Part shown: piece after piece, positions 39,538 through 63,559 of the stretch
How positions within the stretch are numbered: the stretch's first letter is position 1
Layout of the letters: the number at the start of each line of letters is the position of its first letter
Origin: Pseudomonadales bacterium
GTDB lineage: Bacteria; Pseudomonadota; Gammaproteobacteria; Pseudomonadales; Azotimanducaceae
DNA: 64,000 nt
Assembly (NCBI GenBank): GCA_028285415.1
Contig: JANQPF010000033.1
Location: 62,001-126,000, forward strand
Reading direction: 5' to 3'
Made by a program: the position numbers and the translations under genes
Notes under the pieces: model-generated
The model's database searches: none
What the model saw: only the letters and a program-made list of their open reading frames with translations
Told to the model about the DNA's origin: nothing

Positions 39538-40152
39538 CTACAACGCCTCGGCATAGAGTTCTTCTAACTCGGTAGGCTGGATGCAAAGATATTCAAGTGT
39601 CTGCCACTCGCTGGTGTGGCCAAACGCGCGGGTGAGGAGCGCAAGGGGTTTGTCAAAGGTCTTACGCTGATGGTAGCCCCAGGTTTTGCGCAGCGTATGC
39701 GAGCCGTAGTTTCCCTTTAGTCCTATTGCCGCGCACCAGCGCTTCACCAGAGCCGTTACGCAGATCGCGGTTATTGCCTCTCGGGTCTTATAGGATCGAA
39801 ACAATGGCGCGCTAGGGACCGGGTTGGGATGGACCGCCAGCCAGTCATGAACAGCAGCAAAGACATTGTCGTTTACGTTTGAACAGCGATACTTGCCGTT
39901 CTTGCTCTGCTTGATATCCAGCCTGTCACCGGGTTGTAGATGTGCAATCTGTCCGACCTTGATCGAAACTAGTTCGTTGGCGCGATAGGCCGTGTTGATG
40001 CCCAGTGTAAACAAACACAGGTCACGCGGGTTATCCGCCAACAGCATCTTGATGCGCTGGATGTCTTCAAGCCGGGTGATCGGCTCAACCTTGATAGATG
40101 CACCCTTTTTCGGGTGATTGGGATTACGCGAACGCACGGCGCTAGCAGGCAT
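39538..40152 (-). CDS. Short tyrosine recombinase (FimB-sized)
   Basis: A 204-residue tyrosine recombinase consisting of little more than the catalytic domain. The active residues are visible: Arg in NTAYRANELVSI (near residue 58), Lys in KQSKNGKYR (near 84), His-x-x-Arg in SHTLRKTWGYH (near 155), His in AFGHTS (near 178) and the nucleophile Tyr in LEYLCI (near 187). The N-terminal core-binding domain of phage integrases is missing, as in FimB/FimE-like invertases. ATG 40152 follows gaggtgcgcac. Two 22-bp near-identical inverted sites lie 63-206 bases upstream. It may drive integration of the mobilizable element or inversion of the nearby segment. Confidence 0.85.
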   Translation of the reverse strand: MPASAVRSRNPNHPKKGASIKVEPITRLEDIQRIKMLLADNPRDLCLFTLGINTAYRANELVSIKVGQIAHLQPGDRLDIKQSKNGKYRCSNVNDNVFAAVHDWLAVHPNPVPSAPLFRSYKTREAITAICVTALVKRWCAAIGLKGNYGSHTLRKTWGYHQRKTFDKPLALLTRAFGHTSEWQTLEYLCIQPTELEELYAEAL

Positions 40153-43373: not shown

Positions 43374-44660
43374 TTAGGCATACTCTTGCGCAAGGCTCGG
43401 ACTTTCTCGAATGTTCCTAACATCTTCGATAATTGCTGCAAGTGTCTCGTAACGCTGGGCGGGTAGCGCACTAAAGACTTTGTCGATCATTCGGGACCGA
43501 TCCTGCTCAAATACTGCATGTAGAGATATGATCACATTCTCGACCTCCTCGCGTTCGATAATTTGTTTGTTTACCAAATCATCCCGCTCAGCCTGATCGC
43601 GTTTGTGCGCTGCGAACGCTTCAAAACGATTGCGCTCTTCAATCTGCGTCCAACGCCCGCGAATCCTGTCCCATAGTCCAAGTGCTCCGCGCCGAAATCG
43701 CCTTTGACGGATGAGGCTTTCTTCATCTTGGTTGAGTTTTTGCTGCGCTTTCAGGGCTTCACGCTGGCGTTGATGACGGTCCTGCAATCGTCTCACTTTC
43801 GCGCGCTGCGAGAAGAGCTGTTGTTCGTTCTGCTCACGAAGCTGGCCAATCAAAGAAAGCATCCGCTCACATAGTTGCTGATCAATCATCTCCCGCGTTT
43901 CATCAACACTCGGTAACTCCTTCGGCGGTCCCAATCTTTCTTCCAGGACCTTGCGTTTTTGACCGGTAGACCGGCTGAGGGAAAACACTTCGCCGCGCCA
44001 ATCCACTGCAACAAACCCGCGCCGGTCTCCACGTGCCAGATAAAAACCCTTTCGCTCCAATGCCTGCTTAACCTGCGCTTTCGTCTTCCCGCTCTGCCAA
44101 CACTCTCTCAACGTGGCTTTGATCTGCTTTGGATCAAGATCGAGCCTTCTCGCCTGTTGCCATTCGGCCAGCGAATAGTTCAATGGGTTGGTGAGCTTTC
44201 GGTCTTGGTGGCCTGGCGGTAAATCCCATCCATACGCCAGGTAGATCTGTTTCGAGATCGCCGCCATTCTATTTTTATAGAACGGCAGGTTGATCGCTTT
44301 CATTTCCGGTGTTATCCGGCTATAAACTGCGTGCCCATGCCTACGTCCGTTTTTCTCGTGAAACAAAACAATTCTCGGCTGTCCTTCCAGACCCATTTTT
44401 TCTTCAATCATCGACAGCGCTGTTTCATACGTTTCGATGTCAGCGCGCTCGCCTTTAGGCGGGCTCAGGCTGATCGAAAACAGATACTGCCGGCAGCGCG
44501 TGCCTTTAGCGATGGCTTCGGCTTCATCCAGCGCACCAAGCACATCACTCGAAACAAACCCGGAAGTTGAATGCACCTCAACATGTTCGTTATCTTCGAC
44601 GTTGAGGAGATGATGACCGAGCTTGCGTGCAAACCCGCGTTGCGAGGCCTTAATAATCAT
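43374..44660 (-). CDS. MobP-type relaxase
   Basis: A 428-residue relaxase that would nick at oriT and lead DNA transfer. The N-terminal ~170 residues are the catalytic domain, with the metal-binding motif FHEKNGRRHGHAVYS (near residues 100-114) and the upstream phrase TRCRQYLFSISLSPPKGE. The catalytic Tyr is not obvious by eye. The C-terminal half is a charged coiled-coil (QRAKVRRLQDRHQRQREALKAQQK). Its start overlaps the end of the MobC-like gene (44657-44660). A broken relative lies at 32280-32535. Confidence 0.88.
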   Translation of the reverse strand: MIIKASQRGFARKLGHHLLNVEDNEHVEVHSTSGFVSSDVLGALDEAEAIAKGTRCRQYLFSISLSPPKGERADIETYETALSMIEEKMGLEGQPRIVLFHEKNGRRHGHAVYSRITPEMKAINLPFYKNRMAAISKQIYLAYGWDLPPGHQDRKLTNPLNYSLAEWQQARRLDLDPKQIKATLRECWQSGKTKAQVKQALERKGFYLARGDRRGFVAVDWRGEVFSLSRSTGQKRKVLEERLGPPKELPSVDETREMIDQQLCERMLSLIGQLREQNEQQLFSQRAKVRRLQDRHQRQREALKAQQKLNQDEESLIRQRRFRRGALGLWDRIRGRWTQIEERNRFEAFAAHKRDQAERDDLVNKQIIEREEVENVIISLHAVFEQDRSRMIDKVFSALPAQRYETLAAIIEDVRNIRESPSLAQEYA

Positions 44661-49530: not shown

Positions 49531-49881
49531 GTGAGAGATTTTGCGAAACTAGCTCAGTTGGTTGCGTTACGTCGTGATCGTGAATCGCTGGGAGTCAAAG
49601 CTGCAGCATCACAGATTGGCGTACCTTCATCCATTCTATCCAAGGTAGAGCAAGGTCATATTCCTGATCTTGAGAATCTTGAGTTGATTTGTGATTGGTT
49701 AGCCATAAGTCCCTGCGATGTGTTGGGAGCGCATAAGAACCTCACATTGTCTCAACACGAGCTTAGAGTTCATGGGCACTATAAGAAAAAGAAGGTAAAT
49801 AGCCCTCATACGATGGAAGCGTTTTTTTATGCGATGTTGGCAGCAAAACGCGTGCTGAGGGAGTCAGCTAAAGAGAATTAG
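49531..49881 (+). CDS. XRE-family regulator
   Basis: A 116-residue protein from GTG 49531. Residues ~1-65 form a helix-turn-helix of XRE type (LVALRRDRESLGVKAAASQIGVPSSILSKVEQGHIPDLENLELICDWL). The C-terminal half is basic (HYKKKKVNSPHTMEA). It precedes an ImmA/IrrE-type protease gene by two bases, a pairing known from mobile elements where the protease cleaves the repressor after a stress signal. It probably controls the following genes. Confidence 0.85.
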   Translation: MRDFAKLAQLVALRRDRESLGVKAAASQIGVPSSILSKVEQGHIPDLENLELICDWLAISPCDVLGAHKNLTLSQHELRVHGHYKKKKVNSPHTMEAFFYAMLAAKRVLRESAKEN

Positions 49882-49883
49882 TA

Positions 49884-50453
49884 TTGCAGAGGGGTTTTAA
49901 GGCTCGTTGCGAGCGCATCTCGGAAGGCTATCGGATCGAACTTGGTATCCCAGTTCACCAAGCGCTTACCTATCAAACTCTTGCAAAACACCTAGGTGTA
50001 TTTGTCTACTTGATTGATGACCTTCCTTATCTCGATGACATCTACATTAGTCGGTTGCGGGATATAGATGGAGATGACTGGTCAGCTTTCACCGTCATGG
50101 AAGGAAAGCAATCGTTGATTGTTCTCAATTCAACCCACAGTGAAAGAAGGTTGCAGAATGATGCCATGCACGAACTTTCGCATATAGTTTTGGCACACCC
50201 CCCACTTGAAATGCAAGTCGTTGCAGAAGACATGTATTTCTCAAGCCGGTACAACAAAGCACTTGAAGACGAAGCGGACTGGCTCGCGGCAACCTTGTTG
50301 TTACCGCGGAAGGGACTATTGACCATCTACGGTCAATGTTTGGATGTAGAACAAACGGCGAATCACTTTGGCGTGAGCACACAGCTTACAAAGATGCGAC
50401 TCCAGCGAACCGGAATTCTAAACCAACTGAAATCACGAAGTGGTCGTCGATAG
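49884..50453 (+). CDS. ImmA/IrrE-family metallopeptidase
   Basis: A 189-residue protein from TTG 49884. The zinc-peptidase motif H-E-x-x-H is present as MHELSHIVLAH (near residue 96), with the downstream Glu in LEDEADWLAATLLLPRKGL near residue 133. ImmA-type enzymes cleave partner XRE repressors. It is tightly coupled to the XRE gene upstream and followed 32 bases later by the thymine pyrophosphorylase-like gene, so it probably derepresses the neighbouring system. Confidence 0.85.
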   Translation: MQRGFKARCERISEGYRIELGIPVHQALTYQTLAKHLGVFVYLIDDLPYLDDIYISRLRDIDGDDWSAFTVMEGKQSLIVLNSTHSERRLQNDAMHELSHIVLAHPPLEMQVVAEDMYFSSRYNKALEDEADWLAATLLLPRKGLLTIYGQCLDVEQTANHFGVSTQLTKMRLQRTGILNQLKSRSGRR

Positions 50454-50484
50454 CGCTGCTTCTTCAATTTCCTGGAGAACCACC

Positions 50485-51543
50485 ATGCACGCAATTGAAA
50501 TCGATGGAGTTACTCTTGAAACGACAGATGTTTTTTTCGCGTATTGGTACTTCGCTGCTGAGCGGCAAAAAGTGTTCTTCAATCGCCTGAGCAATCGAGG
50601 GGAAAAACCAACCGCGGATGAAATTCTATTAAAATACAAATTTACAAATGCCTATCGTGCATCTGATCGCGTAAGTCAGTACCTCATTCGCAATGTCATC
50701 TATCGTGACGACCTCTCGCAAGCACCTGACGAGCTTTTCTTCAGAGTTTTACTATTTAAGCTATTCAACAAGATCGAAACTTGGGAGTTTCTTGAAGCCG
50801 AACTCGATGAAGTTTCATTGCAGACCTACTCATTCAAACGGCTAGATAAATTGTTGGGTGAGCGCATGAACCGAGGAGAACGGATCTATTCAGCTGCCTA
50901 CATTATTCCTTCTTGCGGCAATGTTTTCGGATACGAATACAAGCATCAAAATCACCTAAAGCTCATTGAGTGGATGCTTAAAAAGGAGATTCCTGCGCTT
51001 CTCAAAGCTGCTCACTCTATGGCTGAGAGTTACAAGATCTTGCGCTCTGTGCCATCTCTAGGTCCCTTCTTGGCTTACCAATTTGCGACTGACCTCAACT
51101 ACAGTGATTTGACAAACTTCCCCGAAGATCAGTTTGTAGTTGCAGGTCCAGGTGCAATCGATGGAATCCAGAAGTGTTTTGTCGACACATACGGAGTTTC
51201 GGCGGAGGACATCATCAAATACATGTGTGAACATCAATCTCAATACTTGAGGGCTCAAAATGAACCCTTTCAATCTCTGTGGGGCCGACAGCTGCAGCTA
51301 ATTGACTGTCAGAACCTTTTCTGCGAGATCTCGAAATATGCTCGCGTGGCATATCCTGAAGTGATCGGTGTGTCTGGACGCAAACGAATTAAACAAACAT
51401 TCGTCCCTAGTCAGTCGTTGCCGACACCGTGGTATCCACCGAAATGGGGTCTTAACGAAAAAATATCGAAAGATGGATTTGCTCACTTACCTTCTTTCGC
51501 TGGACCAGAAACCGCAGCAGATAAGCAATACACCCTCTTTTGA
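50485..51543 (+). CDS. Alpha-glutamyl/putrescinyl-thymine pyrophosphorylase-like protein (HMUDK-hel type)
   Basis: ATG 50485 follows ctggag, giving 352 residues. The N-terminal part has the family phrases FFAYWYFAAERQKVFFNRL, KYKFTNAYRASDRVSQYLI and LLFKLFNKIETWEFLE, followed by a helical region with PSLGPFLAYQFATDLNYS and GPGAIDGIQKCF. I recognise this as the family formerly named 5-hmdU DNA kinase helical domain and later alpha-glutamyl/putrescinyl-thymine pyrophosphorylase, linked to hypermodified thymine in phages and conflict systems. The phrase PSLGPFLAYQ and the GPGA loop are like DNA-glycosylase helix-hairpin-helix elements. Its 3' end overlaps the opposing MazG gene by 61 bases. Confidence 0.65.
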   Translation: MHAIEIDGVTLETTDVFFAYWYFAAERQKVFFNRLSNRGEKPTADEILLKYKFTNAYRASDRVSQYLIRNVIYRDDLSQAPDELFFRVLLFKLFNKIETWEFLEAELDEVSLQTYSFKRLDKLLGERMNRGERIYSAAYIIPSCGNVFGYEYKHQNHLKLIEWMLKKEIPALLKAAHSMAESYKILRSVPSLGPFLAYQFATDLNYSDLTNFPEDQFVVAGPGAIDGIQKCFVDTYGVSAEDIIKYMCEHQSQYLRAQNEPFQSLWGRQLQLIDCQNLFCEISKYARVAYPEVIGVSGRKRIKQTFVPSQSLPTPWYPPKWGLNEKISKDGFAHLPSFAGPETAADKQYTLF

Positions 51544-53168
51544 GAGACTGACACCTTCAAACGGAAAGTCGCAATCCCCGTTTGCCACATTTTGTCTCGC
51601 AATTTGCCGCTAACCTTCGAGGAGTATTGGCCTCTTAATCTATCTGGAAAGATCTCGATAAGCTGATGATTTTTCTGGCTTCTGCTTTTGACATCCAGAC
51701 ATTCCAATATTGCTGTTTTGCAAGCAAGGCATGCACTTACTTGAGAGGGTGTGAATCTCCCGTTGCCTTTGAGGTGGTCAACTTCGCGCTTGGTCAAGTG
51801 TTTTAAACAAGTTCCTTCATTGTAGTTTTGAAACTCCCTGGTTGCTGCTCCTTGAGTGATCAGCTGTCCATCGATTTGTTCGAAAACATGGGGGTTGAAC
51901 GTCAGTCGTCGTGAGTGCAGATCCGCTGTTACTGTTCCTTGCTCTTCTAGTCGCAGCCGATGAAAAACGTCATAACCTTCCAGAATGGTGCTCACCCACT
52001 CCCAGTCCTTGTTGGCTTTGGGCTCTAGGTACTCAGTATATGACCGAAGTGTTTTCAGAAAATTGAAGGAGATTTCTTCCTCAGAGACAAAGAGTCGCTC
52101 TGGACCTTCTTGTCGCTGGTTGGGCGGCCTCGACCTTGCTGCTCGTTTTCCCTCTGAATGGATGAGTTTGACGATTACTTCCTCCTCAAGCTGCCCCCTT
52201 GCGCCATCCTCGACCTCGTCTGTTTGGATTTCCTGTTTTCGTTTTCGCGCTAACATCTTCCTTAAAACAGGAGACCAACCCAAATGGGCGGCGTTCGCTA
52301 TATGCATGACATCATGAAATCGGTAACCATCATCTTCACGGTTGTTGTCAGTGAGAGGGTCCCCGATTGGCTTCCCCTTGAAGTACATCTGTGACACACC
52401 TTTCCCGATTGTGAGAAACACGATAGCCATTTTTCTGGGGAAGCGCTCACCTTTGTTTGAATACGCGTCATGAAGCTGGGTGGGCTTGCCGCGGTCCTCC
52501 CTAAAACTGACTTTGCTGACGTTGCCTTTGACGATTTCCTCTAGCGGTTTACGGCATAGCGATGCAATGGCTGCGAGGTGCCAGATGATTTCACCAACAA
52601 TGACCTCAGTTTCTCTGTCGACTAAATTCTCATTTATGTTTAGTTCCAGCTCAGGTAACTTCTTGCGCAAGAGTTCTGCGCCTAGCTGGGTTAACACGCT
52701 CGCGCACACAGTTAGGAGCGTTCGATCTTTGGTTCTCGCAGTTTGATATGCTAGAGCTTGGTACTGGTTGAAAGAGACAGTGCCGTTCTTTAGCGCCAGC
52801 GTCGCGTTCTTGAGGAAATCTGGTGCTGACGTGAGAGTTGTCTGAATTCGAATAGACTTCTTTGTATCGCTAGAAATTTCATCTATAAGATGCTCAAGAT
52901 CCGAGCGTAGGATATCGTATCGCTTGTTGGTCACGAGACTCAACAGAGAGCATGCGTACCAAATAATGTCGCCGATCTCCTCGAAGATATCATCATCCGA
53001 CCAGACCTCGCTTCGCGCCTCCGTTATAAGCTGTTTTTTTATTGTCGAGATAAGCGAACCAATCTCACCGACTAATCCGTACAGAGCGATGTTTATTTGT
53101 TCTTCTTTGGGGGCGTCTTTGTAGCGGGTGGTCTTCCGTACAAAAGCATAGTAATCAGTGAGGTTCAT
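51483..53168 (-). CDS. MazG-type nucleotide pyrophosphohydrolase with MazG C-terminal domain
   Basis: A 561-residue protein. The first ~100 residues form a MazG-like domain with the acidic metal motif LVGEIGSL (near residue 33) and IFEEIGDIIWYACSLL (near 62). A second, degenerate MazG-like unit follows (residues ~125-225: QLGAELLRKKLPE...VIVGEIIWHLAAIASL), where the Asp of E-x-x-D is Glu. Residues ~245-345 match the MazG C-terminal domain (GKPIGDPLTDNNREDDGYRFHDVMHIANAAHLGWSP, VLRKMLARKRK, DEVEDGARG). The last ~200 residues are unrecognised, with a C-x-x-C pair (ACLACK). Likely hydrolyses modified or surplus nucleotides. It overlaps the convergent pyrophosphorylase-like gene by 61 bases. Confidence 0.75.
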   Translation of the reverse strand: MNLTDYYAFVRKTTRYKDAPKEEQINIALYGLVGEIGSLISTIKKQLITEARSEVWSDDDIFEEIGDIIWYACSLLSLVTNKRYDILRSDLEHLIDEISSDTKKSIRIQTTLTSAPDFLKNATLALKNGTVSFNQYQALAYQTARTKDRTLLTVCASVLTQLGAELLRKKLPELELNINENLVDRETEVIVGEIIWHLAAIASLCRKPLEEIVKGNVSKVSFREDRGKPTQLHDAYSNKGERFPRKMAIVFLTIGKGVSQMYFKGKPIGDPLTDNNREDDGYRFHDVMHIANAAHLGWSPVLRKMLARKRKQEIQTDEVEDGARGQLEEEVIVKLIHSEGKRAARSRPPNQRQEGPERLFVSEEEISFNFLKTLRSYTEYLEPKANKDWEWVSTILEGYDVFHRLRLEEQGTVTADLHSRRLTFNPHVFEQIDGQLITQGAATREFQNYNEGTCLKHLTKREVDHLKGNGRFTPSQVSACLACKTAILECLDVKSRSQKNHQLIEIFPDRLRGQYSSKVSGKLRDKMWQTGIATFRLKVSVSQKRVYCLSAAVSGPAKEGK

Positions 53169-53178
53169 GCTCGATTTC

Positions 53179-53808
53179 CTAGGGTTTCTTCTGTGTCTCG
53201 CGCGTAAAGCTCCATTCTATGGGCTCATCGATGTACCCACGTTCTGGAAACTGCGAAAGCCACTTTAGAAACGCTTCTATTCTGGCTCGTTCAAAATGGG
53301 CCTTGTGCCCTTGTCCGCTCATAACAAAATCGTGTAGCTGCTTTGGAATTTGAGGCCCCGATCTCCCCCAGTACGTATATTCTCTCCCTATGAGTACGCG
53401 GTTCGTACGCCCAGTATCACGTTTAAGGTTGGGCTTACTTAGTTTCCCATTGACTTCACTATGAAAAGAGTCGAGTTGAGAGTAGCCTCCACCCGATTTT
53501 GGCTTATATATGTTGTCACCATAGCGTTGCCGTAGACTGCCACGCATGTATGGCTTCTTGGATCGAAACTCATTTCTCTGCCAGTACTCATCGTAAGTGA
53601 TTATCTCGTCAATCTTCATCCAGTACACAAGCCGCGCATGCATACGTCGGTTTCTAGCTGCGGACCCCGTACCCACGACGTATTCCCCAACGCTTGCGTA
53701 GCGCCTTATGACTGGCTTACAGCACGCAAGCGTACAAGCGGTGCCGAATGGATTCGGCGCGAAACCATGATCATGTTGAACGACGTAGGTGTGAAAACGC
53801 ATTAGCAC
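53179..53808 (-). CDS. Nmad2-like nucleotide-modification-associated protein
   Basis: A 209-residue protein starting with FHTYVVQHDHGFAPNPFGTACTLACCKPVIRRYASVGEYVVGTGS, then RMHARLVYWMKIDEIITYDEYWQRNEFRSKKPY. This matches the consensus I remember for nucleotide-modification-associated domain 2 (Nmad2): D-x-GFAPNPF...CTLA-x-CKP-x-IR...G...GTGS. Nmad proteins are found with DNA base-modification enzymes and MazG or pyrophosphorylase-like genes; their exact role is unproven. It overlaps the end of the upstream gene by seven bases and lies ten bases before the MazG gene, so the three are an operon. Confidence 0.65.
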   Translation of the reverse strand: MLMRFHTYVVQHDHGFAPNPFGTACTLACCKPVIRRYASVGEYVVGTGSAARNRRMHARLVYWMKIDEIITYDEYWQRNEFRSKKPYMRGSLRQRYGDNIYKPKSGGGYSQLDSFHSEVNGKLSKPNLKRDTGRTNRVLIGREYTYWGRSGPQIPKQLHDFVMSGQGHKAHFERARIEAFLKWLSQFPERGYIDEPIEWSFTRETQKKP

Positions 53809-54221
53809 TTATTGCGTTCGGTAGCCGGCTCCTCTCTTTCCTCACCGTGCGGATCTTCGAATTTGGGTTCGCTAGTGCCGCTTGCCGCTCCGTTGATTTT
53901 GACGGCATCCCACGTAAGAACATCTGTCGCATATGACTCAATAGATGGAGGCAAATCCGTAACACCACCAGATCGAGACCACACTCCAATGATTCGGCAG
54001 TTCCTAGCAGATGCAGTTTTGAGGAGTTGCTCTAATAAGTTGAGGGGGATGTTGTTGTCAACGACAATGATCGTCGCATCGCAATCCTCGAGCACCAAAC
54101 GACATTCCTCGAGCGTCAAAGGATAATCACAAACGACGCATTCCAAGTCTAATTCTTCAGCGAGTGTGTTGATGGAGTCTATGTCGCCTCCGTCCGGCTT
54201 TAAGATAATTGCTTTCGCCAT
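53802..54221 (-). CDS. Rossmann-like (TIR/deoxyribosyltransferase-like) protein
   Basis: ATG 54221 follows gaggg, giving 139 residues (a TTG at 54236 would add five). Alternating beta-alpha pattern: AKAIILKPDGGDIDSINTLA, ECRLVLEDCDATIIVVDNN, NCRIIGVWSRSGGVTDLPPS. This resembles a Rossmannoid flavodoxin-like fold of the TIR or nucleoside 2-deoxyribosyltransferase type, but I cannot point to a catalytic Glu with certainty. The C-terminus is acidic and disordered (EDPHGEEREEPATE). First gene of the operon with Nmad2-like and MazG-type genes. Possible NAD- or nucleotide-processing partner; inference. Confidence 0.5.
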   Translation of the reverse strand: MAKAIILKPDGGDIDSINTLAEELDLECVVCDYPLTLEECRLVLEDCDATIIVVDNNIPLNLLEQLLKTASARNCRIIGVWSRSGGVTDLPPSIESYATDVLTWDAVKINGAASGTSEPKFEDPHGEEREEPATERNKC

Positions 54222-54236
54222 ATTCGTAACCCTCAA

Positions 54237-54550: not shown

Positions 54551-55690
54551 ATGGTCTCGATCAATCTAGATCACGCTGTTAAGTATCACTACGGTAAATT
54601 CCCACCGAGATCTCTGCGTTACGACAAGTTCCTTGATCCTTTGCTCAGGGCAACCGAGGCAATTGCGCGTTATGACCAGATGCTAAAGAGCATGCGCAAC
54701 AGTGAGATTCTTCTTGCGCCACTGAGAAACCAGGAAGCGGTGATTTCTTCGCGCATGGAAGGAACTATCAGCACCATGGATGAGATTCTGGAGTATCAAT
54801 CGGAAATCTCTGATGACGCGATGGATGATGAAGGCAGTGATCTTTCGAACTTTCGTACTGAAGTTGTAGAGACTTTTCTCTATCAACGCGCGTTGAAGTC
54901 AGCACAAAATGCCATGTCGGATGGATACCCGTTGTCCGCCAATCTCATTCGACAAATTCACTCTACTCTGCTGTCGTTTGGACGTGGCGCATCAAAGTCA
55001 CCTGGGCAGTTTAAGACCGAACAAAACTATCTAGCCGATCGATCTCGTCGGAACATTAAGTTTGTGCCCATTGAACCTGAGCGGTTACCGGAAGGTATGG
55101 ACGTTCTTTTTGACTATATTGCGCACAACTCCCACTCGCCGTTGGTCAAAGCTGCGCTCGCCCATATTGAGTTTGAGGCGCTGCACCCGTTTCAGGATGG
55201 TAACGGCCGTATCGGGAGAATGTTGATTACTCTGATGCTATGGTCATCGCAGACTATTTCTCAACCTCATTTCTACATAAGCGGCTACTTAGAAGAGCAC
55301 AAAGACGAGTACATCGACACTATGCGTCGGGTTTCAGAGAAGGGCGATTGGGACAACTGGTGCGCATTCTTTCTGACGGCTGTAGAACATCAGGCAGAAG
55401 CGAATCTCGCTATTGCGGAAAGTATCATGGACCTTTACGAGGAGATGAAACAGGTCTTCTCAGAAGTATTGTCTTCCAAGTGGAGCATGGCCGCTCTGGA
55501 TTATGTGTTCACCAATCCTGTTTTCAGGAACAATCGATTCACTTCGAGAAGTGGAATTCCTCAGTCTAGTGCGAGTAGATTCACGCGAATCTTGAGTGAT
55601 GAAGGCCTCATTACCACTAGGATCGAGGCATCTGGTCAAAGGCCCGCTCTTTATTCGTTTGAACCTTTGATGCAAGTGGTACGAATATAA
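54551..55690 (+). CDS. Fic-domain protein (AMP-transferase type) with inhibitory helix
   Basis: A 379-residue Fic protein. The catalytic motif HPFQDGNGRIGRML (near residues 211-224) is complete, including the His and the GNGR anion-hole. An N-terminal segment AVISSRMEGTISTMDE (near residue 65) matches the inhibitory S/T-x-x-x-E-G/N helix, so activity may be autoinhibited. The C-terminal ~90 residues form a winged-helix-like segment (IPQSSASRFTRILSDEGLITT). Fic enzymes transfer AMP or other groups to target proteins. It is a single gene, between the nucleotide system and the coupling protein, transcribed away from both. Confidence 0.88.
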   Translation: MVSINLDHAVKYHYGKFPPRSLRYDKFLDPLLRATEAIARYDQMLKSMRNSEILLAPLRNQEAVISSRMEGTISTMDEILEYQSEISDDAMDDEGSDLSNFRTEVVETFLYQRALKSAQNAMSDGYPLSANLIRQIHSTLLSFGRGASKSPGQFKTEQNYLADRSRRNIKFVPIEPERLPEGMDVLFDYIAHNSHSPLVKAALAHIEFEALHPFQDGNGRIGRMLITLMLWSSQTISQPHFYISGYLEEHKDEYIDTMRRVSEKGDWDNWCAFFLTAVEHQAEANLAIAESIMDLYEEMKQVFSEVLSSKWSMAALDYVFTNPVFRNNRFTSRSGIPQSSASRFTRILSDEGLITTRIEASGQRPALYSFEPLMQVVRI

Positions 55691-55757: not shown

Positions 55758-57401
55758 TTAGAGCTTTAACTTCGTGCGTGCTTTGTACCTCTTCCCGAAG
55801 AGCGGGTTAATCCCAACCCAGCGTTTCCAAGGGCTCACCTCATGGTAACCAATCTTTTTCAGCCGCATCGGCTTATGCTCCCGTACGAACACAATCGCAT
55901 CTGTACATCGTCGCACTTGCTCCGGGGTCATCAGATGCATGGAAGCATCACTGAGTGAGCTGGTCGGCGCATCAAAAGCCGATGCTCCCAGATTGTAGTT
56001 CTTAGCCTTAACCGTTGTGGTGCCCAGCATCTCGGAAATCAGCCGATTGGTTTTGTGCGATCTTGTTCCAAAAATCACCTTGACCTCTGTTTGAGATAAC
56101 AAGGTTTCCAACGATTCTCGGCCGTAGACCCGAACCCATTCTTCGAGCTCCTGGACCACCAGCCAGATAACGATGTGAAACTCTCTGGCGAGCGTCATCG
56201 TGCGCGGCAGCACATCGATTTTGAAATTTGTGATTTCGTCGAGGAGGTAGACGACCCTATTGCCCTGCTGCTCTCGAATGAGTTCGGTCAGCGCACACCA
56301 GCCGAGCAAACCCATCCACGGTGCCATGACATCCGCGCGCGTCGGATCACCCATCAGGTAAACTGTCACTTTCTCCTGGCGCATATCACGAAACCGAAAA
56401 TCACATGCCGCGGCAGATTCCGCGAGCACACCCGATGGGCTAAATGGCTCAAGTACCTGCACAGAGCCTTCGCGAAACGATTCAATCTGCTTGGGATCAC
56501 CCTTTGCGAGCTTGGTATGAAGGTCGGTGGCCAAACGCGCCAGATCGCCGCTCAAGGCATTGCTTTCCATGGCCTTTGTCAATGCATGCGTCAGCGCGTC
56601 AATGTCGCTGAGAAGTTCTAGCGCCCTTGCAAGGGTTGGCGTTTCCTTGCCAAGAGCGACCAGATAAACGAAGGTGAAGGCCAGGAACTTGCGCGATGCA
56701 TCGCGGAAGAATTTGTTCTCCGCCGAGCGGGTTGGTTCAGGGTAAAGCTGCAAGGCAATGGCATGCGCATCACTCAATAAAAATGAGTGCAGCGCTTCCA
56801 TTGCCCAGTCATCGATCAGGATTTGCAAAGGATTATAGCGCCAGGGCGTGCCCAAGATGTCCGCATGATCGCCAGTGGGATTGACGGTGATAATTCTATG
56901 TTTGAGCTTTCTACGGCGAAGCTCTGCTGTCATAACTGCTAGGGTTTTCTTGAGATCTGCCACCAGCATCGAAGAACGATTGTGACAAAGGGCTGGAATG
57001 ACAAAATTTGTCGTCTTACCGCCTCCGGCCGGGCTCAGGACAAGTCCACAGGATTCCGTATCGACCCACACAGGCAGCTTTTCAAGGAGGCCAACCAGGT
57101 AGCCTTGGCCGTGCCGTTTCTTAAGCAGATTCGCCTTCTTGGCATCCTTGGGACTCGCCCATTCCGCAGTACCCGCACGATCTCCTGGGCGTTTGATCCA
57201 CCAACGGTAGATCAAGCGTACACTCAGGCGCAGGAGATTGATCGCGACGCTGAACCACAGTAGCGCTGCAAAACTGGCAAGACCATAAAAGAACCAGACA
57301 TCCGGGGTATAGAGGAGATGTTCGAGTTCGAGCGCAGCCCAGCTCAAAAGCCCAGCCAGCAGCGCCGAGCCAAAGACGCTCGGCTGATGGCGCTGCATCA
57401 A
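55758..57401 (-). CDS. VirD4/TraG-family type IV coupling protein
   Basis: A 547-residue coupling protein. Two N-terminal transmembrane helices (residues ~8-60) are followed by the ATPase domain with Walker A SPAGGGKTTNF (near residue 124) and Walker B VYLLDEITNF (near residue 386). A TraG-like sequence PMRLKK follows near the C-terminus. It would link the relaxosome to a type IV secretion channel. It overlaps the upstream gene by four bases (57398-57401). No VirB/TraB channel genes are in the window, so the element is probably mobilizable or has its channel genes elsewhere. Confidence 0.88.
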   Translation of the reverse strand: MMQRHQPSVFGSALLAGLLSWAALELEHLLYTPDVWFFYGLASFAALLWFSVAINLLRLSVRLIYRWWIKRPGDRAGTAEWASPKDAKKANLLKKRHGQGYLVGLLEKLPVWVDTESCGLVLSPAGGGKTTNFVIPALCHNRSSMLVADLKKTLAVMTAELRRRKLKHRIITVNPTGDHADILGTPWRYNPLQILIDDWAMEALHSFLLSDAHAIALQLYPEPTRSAENKFFRDASRKFLAFTFVYLVALGKETPTLARALELLSDIDALTHALTKAMESNALSGDLARLATDLHTKLAKGDPKQIESFREGSVQVLEPFSPSGVLAESAAACDFRFRDMRQEKVTVYLMGDPTRADVMAPWMGLLGWCALTELIREQQGNRVVYLLDEITNFKIDVLPRTMTLAREFHIVIWLVVQELEEWVRVYGRESLETLLSQTEVKVIFGTRSHKTNRLISEMLGTTTVKAKNYNLGASAFDAPTSSLSDASMHLMTPEQVRRCTDAIVFVREHKPMRLKKIGYHEVSPWKRWVGINPLFGKRYKARTKLKL

Positions 57402-60012: not shown

Positions 60013-62493
60013 CTAGGTTTCGATTTCGACGTCGATATTAGTTTCAATGACTGCGTTGACCGGGGTGTACAAATCAAACTCGATATCTGCGGTTCGCAAG
60101 GTAATTACCAGTGCGTATCGAGCTTTTTGATTGCAGACCTCAAGACTCGCTCGATTTCGCCACCAGCCCATGGTCGGCTTTACACAGAGCATATTACGTA
60201 GTGCCAACTGCGCTGCCGGTCCCCGCCATACATCGCAGTGAAGTGAGCCTGCCGATACACTTTGCGAACCAAGCATCCACCTGTTGTCTTCGGCAGCAAA
60301 ACGGACACGATCTTTTGGGTCTTCCCTTTCTTTGGTGTTGAGCCGTTGAAGAAACTCCTGCGAATCTTCAAGCGGTCGCATGAGATCGAAGCGAAGGCCG
60401 AACGACTGATAGCGTTGTGGATCGACTGAAGATGAAGCCCCGGGATTAGGTTCGATGAAATAGGACAACGTTACTTTGAGCTCAACTTCAGCTTCGCCAA
60501 GGTCCTCTAGTGTTCGCAGGGGCCATGGAAGTTGATAGTAGTGACAATCTGAAAACCGCCTGCCTCCACCTGACTTATAGGGCTGGATGTGGTTTTGTGC
60601 CACTAAGGCCAGGTCATTAATCGCAGATGCGCGGGCGCGCTCCAGAGAGGGCACTCCATAACCAAACCGCCGTAGCGAGGGATATCTGTCGCGCAGTCCT
60701 CGTGCAGCTGCCAGTTCATCCTCCATGGTCTGGGTCCATTCTGCGCTATGAACAATAAGAGCCCGTATCGTTTCCGGCCAATAATCAGGGAATTCCTCTG
60801 TCAGCATAGCCGCGATGCGGGAAACTTGAGCTGTTGCAGCACTGGTCGCGCAAAATGGAGATAGCGGCTGTCGATCAACGTCACTACCCGTCGTTAGTGT
60901 GCATAGTGAATCTGCGGTATACACGCTTTCTCCGTCAGGACTCACGACTCGATTTCCGGCCTCCATCACGACATCAGGTTTGAAAGCTGTTTTGCCCTGA
61001 GGCCAAAGCACTGAGGTCCGGCTATGCGGGCTGAGCGCCCCCACATCGACTAAAGGCTCGTGATCTTGAAGATCTTCTTCGGCGACTGCTACTTTGTTTG
61101 TATAGCCGCCGACGGTAATGGCATTCCAGGCTTGAGCGGGGTCCTCAATTGGATACTCGTCGTTTGGTAGAATTCGACTACGCTCGATATGCTCGGGAAT
61201 GTTTCCCGCTGATACCACGAATAAACGTCTCTTTGGTTCTTCTCCCTCATCTCTCAGCGCCCCTGAGGTGATCTGATCGATGGCAGCGCTCCATGTGGTT
61301 GCGCGTGAACCTGATACGTTTTCATTTGTGACCGCCATACAGAAGACGCGTTTCCGCTCAGGGTTGTTTATCTCGGAGATAGAGACTCCTGATTGGGTAA
61401 CAGCGCCATATGATTTGGGATCATTTGCTCCAAACCCATCAGGCGGAAGAAACTTCACTGACTCCAGTCGGTGTTTCAGCTCCATTTCGCTGTCGTCAAC
61501 CAAACGCGGTGTCAGATCTCCATGTAAAGCAAGTCCAGCCATCAGCGTACCGTGGCCGGCTTGGTCATCTTCTCCCCACCGTGAATTGATCGCCATCATA
61601 TCGACTGTACCCAGTGCAGGCTCAATCAGGACATGTGCTCTATTCACTCCCGTATCAAGCAGGCAGATTGCGGTGGCTTCGTTGCCGGGCCAAGTCGTCC
61701 TCTCAGCAAGGTTGACCGCCCAATCAAACTGATCTTCTCGGTTCTCATCAGTAAAAAACACTGGCGATGCGCTTGCTCGACGCAACTCCGCAATTCCAAA
61801 CGTTGCGAACAAGAGCAATTCTATCGTCACTCGGTTAGTGAAGATGGGGACGACCGTAGATTCAGGAAATCTCAACCAGTAGTGTGCTTCTCCTACAACC
61901 GCTCTTAGCTGTTGCGCGTGAGCAGAAACAGATTCTTCCGCACCCGAGAAACACCATACCTCCCACCAAAACTCGGTTTCTGGATCATCTGGAAGTGCAT
62001 TTGGATCATCTGTCCAAAACGTTTGTAGCCTGGCTACACGGAATGCTTCTATTGGTTCTACGAAGTTTCTATTCGGTGGATTGCCAGCCACCGTTAGTTC
62101 TCCACCCGTATAGTCTTCAAGAATTCGTTCCAGCACCGGTCTGGCCGCGTCTGGCACGAATAGGGCGACTGTGAGTGCTTCATTCGGCTCCATCCGAACA
62201 GCACCTGGCTTCATACCATCATCCTTTCGTTCTAGCTTGTCGACTTTTCGCTGCCGGACGATCTCTACCTCGACGTACTTTCCGCCTGCCGGTTCGATTC
62301 CGTCTGGTGTTGGGGGGGACTGCTGATTCATAACAGCAAAGGCAGTCTCGAGTTCACGTCTCAATCGCGAGCCGTGTTCCTCTCGTATCCTCGGAGCGCT
62401 CCCGCCGCCACGATATTGAGATGGGGCCTGGTATTCACCATCTCGCTTCCTCTGAGAGATATCGAGATGCGGGAGTGAGAACCGCTCGGTCAA
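60013..62493 (-). CDS. S8 subtilisin-like protease paired with an AAA+ ATPase
   Basis: An 826-residue cytosolic protease from TTG 62493 (aagga about eight bases upstream), with no signal peptide. The catalytic triad motifs are ICLLDTGVN (Asp, near residue 279), GHGTLMAG (His, near 313) and FCATSAATAQVSR (Ser, near 549). An N-terminal ~270-residue region and a C-terminal beta-rich region have no known domain. It starts five bases after the AAA+ gene, so the two are a module. Cytosolic subtilisin-AAA+ pairs recur in bacteria and are considered candidate conflict or quality-control systems; the target is unknown. Confidence 0.85.
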   Translation of the reverse strand: MTERFSLPHLDISQRKRDGEYQAPSQYRGGGSAPRIREEHGSRLRRELETAFAVMNQQSPPTPDGIEPAGGKYVEVEIVRQRKVDKLERKDDGMKPGAVRMEPNEALTVALFVPDAARPVLERILEDYTGGELTVAGNPPNRNFVEPIEAFRVARLQTFWTDDPNALPDDPETEFWWEVWCFSGAEESVSAHAQQLRAVVGEAHYWLRFPESTVVPIFTNRVTIELLLFATFGIAELRRASASPVFFTDENREDQFDWAVNLAERTTWPGNEATAICLLDTGVNRAHVLIEPALGTVDMMAINSRWGEDDQAGHGTLMAGLALHGDLTPRLVDDSEMELKHRLESVKFLPPDGFGANDPKSYGAVTQSGVSISEINNPERKRVFCMAVTNENVSGSRATTWSAAIDQITSGALRDEGEEPKRRLFVVSAGNIPEHIERSRILPNDEYPIEDPAQAWNAITVGGYTNKVAVAEEDLQDHEPLVDVGALSPHSRTSVLWPQGKTAFKPDVVMEAGNRVVSPDGESVYTADSLCTLTTGSDVDRQPLSPFCATSAATAQVSRIAAMLTEEFPDYWPETIRALIVHSAEWTQTMEDELAAARGLRDRYPSLRRFGYGVPSLERARASAINDLALVAQNHIQPYKSGGGRRFSDCHYYQLPWPLRTLEDLGEAEVELKVTLSYFIEPNPGASSSVDPQRYQSFGLRFDLMRPLEDSQEFLQRLNTKEREDPKDRVRFAAEDNRWMLGSQSVSAGSLHCDVWRGPAAQLALRNMLCVKPTMGWWRNRASLEVCNQKARYALVITLRTADIEFDLYTPVNAVIETNIDVEIET

Positions 62494-62498
62494 TTTCT

Positions 62499-63491
62499 TT
62501 AATCCTTAAACAGAGCGTCTCGCATCTCCGCTCGCTCTTCCATGCGTTGCAATATATCGACCGTCGAGAGTTGGTCTTTTTCGTCCAAAATAGCTGTCTT
62601 TACGGCATCCTCCGATGCCTGAACAACCTCTGCCTGACTCAACCCTCGTGCTGCCTCAATGAGCTTTTTCCACACCAGTCGAGGATGTTTCATCGGTCTA
62701 ATGTTGGCAGTGATTAACTTCCTTATTTGCTCGTCGCTAGGTGCCGTGAATTCGAGTACAACATCGAACCGCCGAAGCAGCGCTTTATCCAGAAGCTCGG
62801 GGTAGTTTGTTGCTGCAAGCACCACACTGTCTGTGGAATTGGTTTCTTCCATAAACTGGAGGAAGGAATTCAATACACGCCGCATTTCTGCAACATCATT
62901 CGTTGAATCTCGCCGACTACCGACCGCGTCAAACTCATCGAAGAGATAGACGCCGCGTCTTGTATTTACTTCGTCAAAGACCAACCTCAACTTAGAGGCT
63001 GTTTCTCCCATGAATCTAGTGATCAGAGCATCGAGGCGAATGACAAAGAGAGGAATTCGCAGGGTATGCGCAAGACCTTCAGCTGTCATGGTTTTTCCCG
63101 ACCCAGGCGGGCCTACGAACAAGACCCTCCTATGAGGTGTTTTACCATGCTCTCGTAGCCAGCCCCTCTTTTGCTGTTCCCGCGTAAAGAGATTCAGCTT
63201 CGAACTCAGTTTGTTGCTTAGAACAACGTCCTTTAGGGCTACCCGTGGTTCTCGCATGACCAACATGCCGCTGAGGTCGCCCCGTGGTTTTGAAAAGGAA
63301 ACCGGAACGCTCGCTCCTCGACCGGTTCGATCACGTGCTTCATCTACCGCTGCCCTAATCTCTTCGGCTGTGGTTTTGTGACCACGCCTAGCCTCGGCAG
63401 CAGCAACCTGCAACGCGATTGAAAACAAGCGCTCATCATCGTCTTTCGCGCGGCTGCGAACTATTTCAAGAACTTGTTTGGCATTCGACAT
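62499..63491 (-). CDS. AAA+ ATPase of the subtilisin pair
   Basis: ATG 63491 gives 330 residues (a second ATG at 63503 is possible). It has one AAA+ module: Walker A VGPPGSGKTMTAE (near residue 128), Walker B VYLFDEFDAVGSRRD (near 182), sensor and Arg-finger-like LLRRFDVVLEF (near 235). It belongs to the FtsH/spastin-like clade of AAA+ proteins that unfold or remodel substrates. The N-terminal ~100 residues are a helical region. It precedes the S8 protease by five bases, so it probably feeds or gates the protease. Confidence 0.88.
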   Translation of the reverse strand: MSNAKQVLEIVRSRAKDDDERLFSIALQVAAAEARRGHKTTAEEIRAAVDEARDRTGRGASVPVSFSKPRGDLSGMLVMREPRVALKDVVLSNKLSSKLNLFTREQQKRGWLREHGKTPHRRVLFVGPPGSGKTMTAEGLAHTLRIPLFVIRLDALITRFMGETASKLRLVFDEVNTRRGVYLFDEFDAVGSRRDSTNDVAEMRRVLNSFLQFMEETNSTDSVVLAATNYPELLDKALLRRFDVVLEFTAPSDEQIRKLITANIRPMKHPRLVWKKLIEAARGLSQAEVVQASEDAVKTAILDEKDQLSTVDILQRMEERAEMRDALFKD

Positions 63492-63559
63492 GCTAAGCAC
63501 CATCCTTGTGCACTGACATGTTAACGTATCTCACTCCGTACGCTTGAACTAGAGAAATC

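Follow-up and report, generated by a model that had tools for sequence, protein, structure and literature searches.

A converging locus of divergent TIR, Nmad2, MazG_C and HMUDK_hel genes as a possible regulated anti-phage module in a Pseudomonadales bacterium

Results

Gene content of the locus

Here we describe six genes that lie in two converging runs at 49531-54236 of a 64,000-nucleotide stretch of DNA from a Pseudomonadales bacterium (assembly GCA_028285415.1). This stretch, hereafter the window, covers positions 62001-126000 of the 212-kb contig JANQPF010000033.1 in a genome of 5.97 Mb. An XRE-ImmA-HMUDK_hel run on the plus strand meets a TIR-like-Nmad2-MazG-MazG_C run on the minus strand, and the 3′ ends of HMUDK_hel and MazG-MazG_C overlap at 51483-51543. 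The initial annotation had set XRE, ImmA and HMUDK_hel genes against convergent genes for a Rossmann-like, an Nmad2 and a MazG protein, and all of them are indeed open reading frames (ORFs) at the positions it gave:

49531..49881, plus strand: XRE/helix-turn-helix (HTH) regulator, 116 amino acids (HTH_31/HTH_3 just below the Pfam cut-offs, E ~1e-4)
49884..50453, plus strand: ImmA/IrrE M78 metallopeptidase, 189 amino acids, with an HELSH motif (Peptidase_M78, 1.9e-14)
50485..51543, plus strand: HMUDK_hel protein (aGPT-Pplase-type), predicted fold helix-hairpin-helix (HhH)-glycosylase-like (PF18723, 4e-100)
51483..53168, minus strand: MazG-MazG_C nucleotide pyrophosphohydrolase-like protein, 561 amino acids (PF18722, 1.7e-54)
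53179..53802, minus strand: Nmad2 protein, predicted fold ASCH/EVE/YTH-like (PF18753, 1.9e-66)
53802..54221, minus strand: divergent TIR-like protein without the WxWE motif, C-terminal ERNKC (PADLOC ThsB, 5.8e-8)

The HMUDK_hel ORF opens at GTG 50440 (50440-51543, plus strand), with ATG 50485 chosen as the start, and the TIR-like ORF opens at TTG 54236 (53802-54236, minus strand, 144 amino acids). Nmad2 probably starts at ATG 53802, which overlaps the TIR-like stop codon in a TAATG junction; GTG 53808 is the alternative. The source genome was found to hold one copy each of the Nmad2, HMUDK_hel, MazG_C and TIR-like genes. A scan for regulatory signals returned 8 promoter-like sites against 6.4 expected and 4 terminator-like sites against 4.6 expected.

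The family names first proposed hold above the Pfam cut-offs for HMUDK_hel (335.2 bits, curated cut-off 25), MazG_C (184.7 bits, cut-off 29.7), Nmad2 (223.9 bits, cut-off 26.1) and the M78 peptidase, whereas the XRE protein and the MazG half (Pfam MazG, 15.6 bits, cut-off 22) fall below theirs.

Conservation and co-occurrence

That these families belong together is borne out by other genomes, where they are found together across phyla. Scanning GTDB with an Nmad2 alignment gave 543 confirmed relatives among 550 candidate stretches. The best 80 loci, which come from many phyla, were kept and annotated with profiles built from window, plasmid and genome seeds; a gene was counted as present anywhere in the fetched locus, which reached at most 8 kb to each side and was shorter in some cases. 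In 78 of the 80 loci the gene immediately upstream of Nmad2 encodes a TIR protein, the two misses (L055 and L092) beginning at a contig edge. MazG_C is present in 60 loci, a uracil-DNA glycosylase (UDG) in 47 and HMUDK_hel in 26; only L061 holds both UDG and HMUDK_hel, and eight hold neither. This alternation of UDG and HMUDK_hel persists after collapsing at 75% Nmad2 identity (n=56; both 1, UDG only 26, HMUDK_hel only 22, neither 7; p 1.4e-8).

The window's layout, with divergent TIR-Nmad2-MazG_C converging on HMUDK_hel, is found in eight loci (L041, L042, L044, L045, L051, L056, L067 and L069). L042 is counted among them with Nmad2 and MazG_C in a single 774-amino-acid ORF (8001 onward), possibly a natural fusion or an assembly error. 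Rhodococcus RHA1 has the same convergent layout, but with a canonical TIR. Two TIR-Nmad2 cassettes in opposite orientation occur within one locus in L021 and L091.

Beyond these genomes, plasmid records matched MazG_C (33), HMUDK_hel (21) and Nmad2 (16), and 7 of 62 candidate stretches from IMG/VR are Nmad2 relatives, five of them with the TIR-Nmad2 pair; no TIR was found with Nmad2 in L123 and L124 (IMG/VR), nor with the distant Nmad2 of L011. HMUDK_hel matches 486 of 50,697 phage records, and tblastn finds nothing in this set for the Nmad2 and MazG_C proteins of the window (E 0.01 and 0.001). Since Nmad2 occurs in just 2 of 58 related genomes and MazG_C in 4 of 369 genomes of the class, own genome included in both counts, the two have probably spread horizontally.

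A degenerate TIR protein with a conserved cysteine tail

The Rossmann-like partner of the initial annotation is present as a protein, but a likeness to nucleoside deoxyribosyltransferases is not borne out: it has no Pfam match at E 0.1, ThsB_TIR included, and shows a TIR relationship instead. The PADLOC ThsB model PDLC00418 covers it from residue 73 to the last residue, a weak match (5.8e-8). In two relatives the canonical TIRs cover this model from end to end (1e-92 and 2e-57), and divergent relatives match it over the same C-terminal part as the window protein (L028, 5e-13; L051, 1e-5; L044, 2e-5). As the window protein also aligns with the divergent TIRs of related loci, we identify it, by sequence, as a divergent, degenerate ThsB-type TIR protein.

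A cysteine stands within the last three residues of 68 of the 79 Nmad2-adjacent TIRs, compared with 1 of 25 TIR ORFs found elsewhere in these loci. The tail mostly takes the form R-[HYN]-x-C, with TKRNKC in much of the window's subgroup and ERNKC in the window itself. The 11 exceptions have the cysteine slightly further in (L063, L072), an RNLCVDEE-type ending (L041, L042, L044, L045) or no cysteine near the end (L040, L050, L064, L077 and one copy in L091). We considered whether the terminal cysteine arises only because its TGC/TGT codon overlaps the ATG/GTG that starts the following gene, and rejected this, as it is kept without overlap in 30 of 34 TIRs of the group labelled TIRb and in 19 of 22 of the window's subgroup, TIRdiv.

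A strict pattern search recovers the WxWE motif, which we take to carry the TIR catalytic Glu, from 32 of 47 TIRb proteins (the other 15 fail it) and from 0 of 31 TIRdiv proteins. SLOG/TIR-pair neighbours, meaning any member of clusters c0, c4 and c5 (TIR_2, SLOG cluster2 and cluster3, with one or two members of each tested against Pfam), accompany 25 of 44 canonical-TIR loci against 0 of 34 divergent-TIR loci, "canonical" here denoting a profile score >150 and not the motif. After collapsing, the contrast is 16 of 33 against 0 of 23 (p 4e-5). L055 and L092, whose upstream side is cut, carry no TIR label in this comparison or in that of synthase genes below. From the absence of both WxWE and SLOG/TIR-pair neighbours we infer that, in the window's branch, the core works without TIR catalysis.

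These observations bear on Thoeris-like signalling, in which the TIR would make an ADP-ribose-type signal for a SLOG/SIR2 effector. It may hold for relatives, whose TIRs match ThsB_TIR and more than half of whose canonical-TIR loci have the SLOG/TIR-pair neighbours, and the window protein is itself a weak match to the PADLOC ThsB model. For the window, however, such signalling is very improbable: neither motif nor neighbours occur in its subgroup, and no ThsA-type SIR2/SLOG or macro effector was found among the 10 window proteins scanned (45.7-55.7 kb).

Predicted functions of the Nmad2, HMUDK_hel and MazG_C proteins

The predicted Nmad2 model (predicted local distance difference test score, pLDDT, 94.6) returns ASCH/EVE/YTH-like folds in a fold search and looks like a PUA-type modified-base reader. 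HMUDK_hel has a predicted HhH-glycosylase-like fold; in place of the catalytic Asp/Lys that follow the hairpin in HhH-GPD enzymes, 28 of 28 HMUDK_hel sequences have F195 and G221, with positional equivalence judged by eye. Sequence searches found no credible solved-structure relatives of either protein. HMUDK_hel also sits in the M6-type phage hypermodification operon, and because 25 of 70 near-invariant positions of the host proteins are common to both phage proteins compared (M6-like PAC6 and LuckyBarnes), a 5-substituted deoxyuridine (dU) related to the phage one is a reasonable candidate substrate. On the L115 and L116 plasmids HMUDK_hel adjoins genes for DNA polymerase III epsilon/exonuclease and alpha, which is suggestive of phage-plasmids.

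The MazG half is remotely recognisable: among solved structures, a profile of the family picks up MazG-like proteins and dCTP pyrophosphatases (best 4.7e-6), the acidic MazG residues E35, E63, E64 and D67 are invariant in alignment A1, and a PHROG of MazG-like phage proteins matches the MazG_C protein remotely (5e-23). dCTP deaminases act in defence by depletion of deoxynucleoside triphosphates (dNTPs), and Dcd-like neighbours occur in 9 of the 80 loci (cluster c2, one member tested against Pfam). The MazG-type domain and these neighbours would suit a system in which infection leads MazG_C, joined in relatives by enzymes of the Dcd-like and UDG/HMUDK_hel kinds, to break down ordinary pyrimidine deoxynucleotides, and in which no modified base is recognised. 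We consider this rather unlikely for the window, where no Dcd-like protein is present among those scanned and where depletion would leave both the ASCH/EVE/YTH-like Nmad2 and the hypermodification-type HMUDK_hel unexplained.

The XRE-ImmA pair

The plus-strand run has ImmR/ImmA-type gene content, namely an HTH gene, its match below the Pfam cut-off, and an M78 protease with HExxH. By BLAST among the 80 loci, the window ImmA is nearest to a 185-amino-acid ImmA (28% identity, E 2e-15) of L062, a Chloroflexi metagenome-assembled genome that holds TIR, Nmad2, MazG_C and a convergent HMUDK_hel; that ImmA adjoins a 113-amino-acid XRE, but the window XRE finds instead another L062 ORF (2341-2700, E 8e-6). 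More broadly, the association of XRE/ImmA with HMUDK_hel stands: of the 21 plasmid records with a match, 16 regions were viewed, and 8 of these have HTH and ImmA genes no more than about 4 kb from HMUDK_hel. Among the genome loci, 11 of the 26 with HMUDK_hel have an M78 protein within 8 kb, against 5 of the 54 others (Fisher p 0.0018, uncorrected for relatedness).

An M78 protein also lies just upstream of the TIR in seven of the eight same-layout loci (not L069), where it is of a different kind. PD-Lambda-2 is a tested abortive-infection system that combines an XRE-peptidase with a HigB-like protein and one further component (PMC9519451). All seven proteins match PD-Lambda-2_B (3e-104 to 3e-149), and PD-Lambda-2_A matches the small ORF beside the XRE-peptidase in both loci tested (L041 and L044) as well as the N-terminal part of the L042 ORF. 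Because no L051 core protein matches any PD-Lambda-2 model, the PD-Lambda-2-type gene may be a partner of the core or belong to a neighbouring system of its own. The XRE-peptidase of these relatives is of a toxin-antitoxin-like type; in the window, by contrast, XRE and ImmA are separate, small and on the HMUDK_hel side of the locus.

Chance could have brought an unrelated XRE-ImmA regulator or toxin-antitoxin pair next to genes for nucleotide housekeeping, as unrelated genes accumulate on mobile elements. In keeping with this, a profile made from the XRE proteins of other HMUDK_hel operons does not match that of the window (E 1), and neither XRE nor ImmA matches a PD-Lambda-2 model of PADLOC at E 0.1. 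However, HTH-ImmA recurs near HMUDK_hel in several phyla and the core recurs in the same order, and we regard chance assembly as a marginal explanation.

A second operon architecture and the origin of the substrate

XRE and ImmA recur in a second architecture, in which an acyl carrier protein gene or small ORF is followed by XRE, ImmA, an annotated thymidylate synthase, HMUDK_hel and MazG_C (L012, L109, L110 and L111). The same order is found in genomes L009 and L010, and in Streptomyces plasmids an unannotated gene takes the place of the synthase and the orientation differs. Two operons of this kind hold a holo-ACP synthase gene. The gene content of this second architecture suggests that an acylated or modified thymidine nucleotide is made under regulation.

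Among 25 HMUDK_hel loci, a thymidylate-synthase-type gene is present in 0 of 15 with MazG_C and in 9 of 10 without it, a figure lowered by the omission of L092, an HMUDK_hel locus with a cluster c1 gene and no MazG_C. Eight of the nine calls belong to c1 (Thymidylat_synt by Pfam in four of four tested) and Pfam finds nothing in the ninth, L071. Nor does it match the thymidylate-synthase-type proteins of L009, L012 and L090, that of L012 being so named by annotation. Since the synthase-type gene is missing from all 15 loci with MazG_C, the window's kind of locus would not make its own modified precursor, a conclusion that is not valid for the second architecture, which has both synthase and MazG_C.

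The same evidence bears on whether the window's genes direct the synthesis of a hypermodified thymidine nucleotide or DNA base, for self-marking or as an antiviral nucleotide, with HMUDK_hel a transferase or kinase partner as in phages. The place of HMUDK_hel in the M6-type phage operon, the second architecture and the radical SAM or O-methyltransferase partners beside HMUDK_hel in some relatives favour such synthesis. It is nonetheless improbable here, given the distribution of synthase genes and the absence of any synthase, kinase, ADDT or tailoring gene among the window proteins scanned.

Genomic setting

The locus sits beyond a tyrosine-integrase ORF and between genes for a relaxase and a type IV secretion system (T4SS) coupling protein, and is flanked by a candidate defence gene outside the core:

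39538-40152: tyrosine-integrase ORF
43374-44660: MobA/VirD2-type relaxase
54551..55690, plus strand: SoFic-like Fic protein (Pfam Fic and Fic_N; PADLOC SoFic, 5.5e-107)
55758-57401: T4SS coupling protein

About 6-9 kb from the locus, at 60013-63503 on the minus strand, lies an IetA/IetS pair (IetS-like subtilase, 2.5e-36; IetA-like AAA ATPase, 3.6e-71), a catalogued defence system. No tRNA genes were found in the 64-kb window. The locus appears to be carried as cargo on a mobilisable element that holds several defence genes. Among the relatives, a ~730-amino-acid metallophosphoesterase-type protein lies near the system in L026, L036, L037, L043 and L090 (cluster c9), with similar proteins in L013 and L016.

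Discussion

Taking together the gene content, its conserved co-occurrence, the alternation of HMUDK_hel and UDG, the predicted folds and a degenerate TIR with a conserved Cys tail, we lean towards reading the locus as a member of the TIR-Nmad2-MazG_C-glycosylase-fold family that serves as a regulated anti-phage (conflict) module and has modified deoxyuridine nucleotides or DNA as its target. We hold this reading tentatively, with somewhat less than even confidence. A defence role for these domain types is predicted in print, and the mechanism that follows is inferred. XRE would repress the locus and ImmA would relieve the repression on stress or infection; alternatively, by analogy with PD-Lambda-2, the pair may be a toxin-antitoxin-like guard. 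Nmad2 would recognise a modified deoxypyrimidine. The dead TIR would be its adaptor and may dock on Nmad2 or a partner through the R-N-K-C tail. MazG-MazG_C would convert modified or ordinary pyrimidine dNTPs to monophosphates, and HMUDK_hel, a relative of the phage 5-hydroxymethyl-dU hypermodification protein, would bind or alter the same 5-substituted dU as nucleotide or DNA, with failure of phage DNA synthesis as the outcome. The substrate would come from the phage, because no thymidylate-synthase-type gene is present among the locus proteins scanned.

A more specific form of this proposal, which we consider doubtful, is an immune complex in which a TIR without the NAD-cleaving motif serves as an adaptor and its Arg-x-x-Cys tail couples it to the YTH/EVE-like reader Nmad2, licensing the hypermodification enzyme and the MazG pyrophosphatase against modified thymine nucleotides of the invader. 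In this picture the other branch would have kept TIR catalysis and gained SLOG effectors.

Predicted nucleotide-modification defence parts were reportedly set out by Burroughs et al. in 2015 (reference 59 of the DefensePredictor study). The initial annotation could not name the combination as a described system, a view that needs qualification: there are hundreds of relatives, and DefensePredictor, in the text available, lists aGPT-Pplase, MazG, MazG-C, nucleotide modification associated domain, UDG and dUTPase in predicted, unvalidated defence systems, with HTH among its figure abbreviations (PMC13092281). In contrast to the window, "ImmA" appears nowhere in that text, nor was a dead TIR or Cys tail seen there (PMC13092281). 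Our literature search found no experimental test of the gene set, nor any account of the degenerate TIR branch, the Cys tail, the alternation of UDG and HMUDK_hel or the XRE-ImmA link. These four features appear to be new, although comparative studies of 2013 and 2015 may cover part and priority is uncertain; the family itself was already predicted.

Other known systems resemble the locus in part. Phage thymidine hypermodification operons (M6-like; PAC6) share HMUDK_hel with its invariant residues, but their P-loop HMUDK kinase, ADDT and thymidylate synthase/dUMP-hydroxymethylase were not found among the window proteins scanned. Brig1 is a single-gene anti-phage glycosylase of the UDG superfamily that acts on alpha-glucosyl-hydroxymethylcytosine and restricts modified-base phages (PMC11078745). 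It offers a precedent for UDG-superfamily defence in relatives where UDG replaces HMUDK_hel; the window has HMUDK_hel and not UDG.

If the proposal is true, the locus would represent a defence aimed at the very base modifications by which phages hide from restriction, and the C-terminal Cys tail of a whole TIR clade would have a purpose. The contrast between canonical TIRs with SLOG and degenerate TIRs without it would also turn signalling versus direct action into a question that can be tested by changing one gene.

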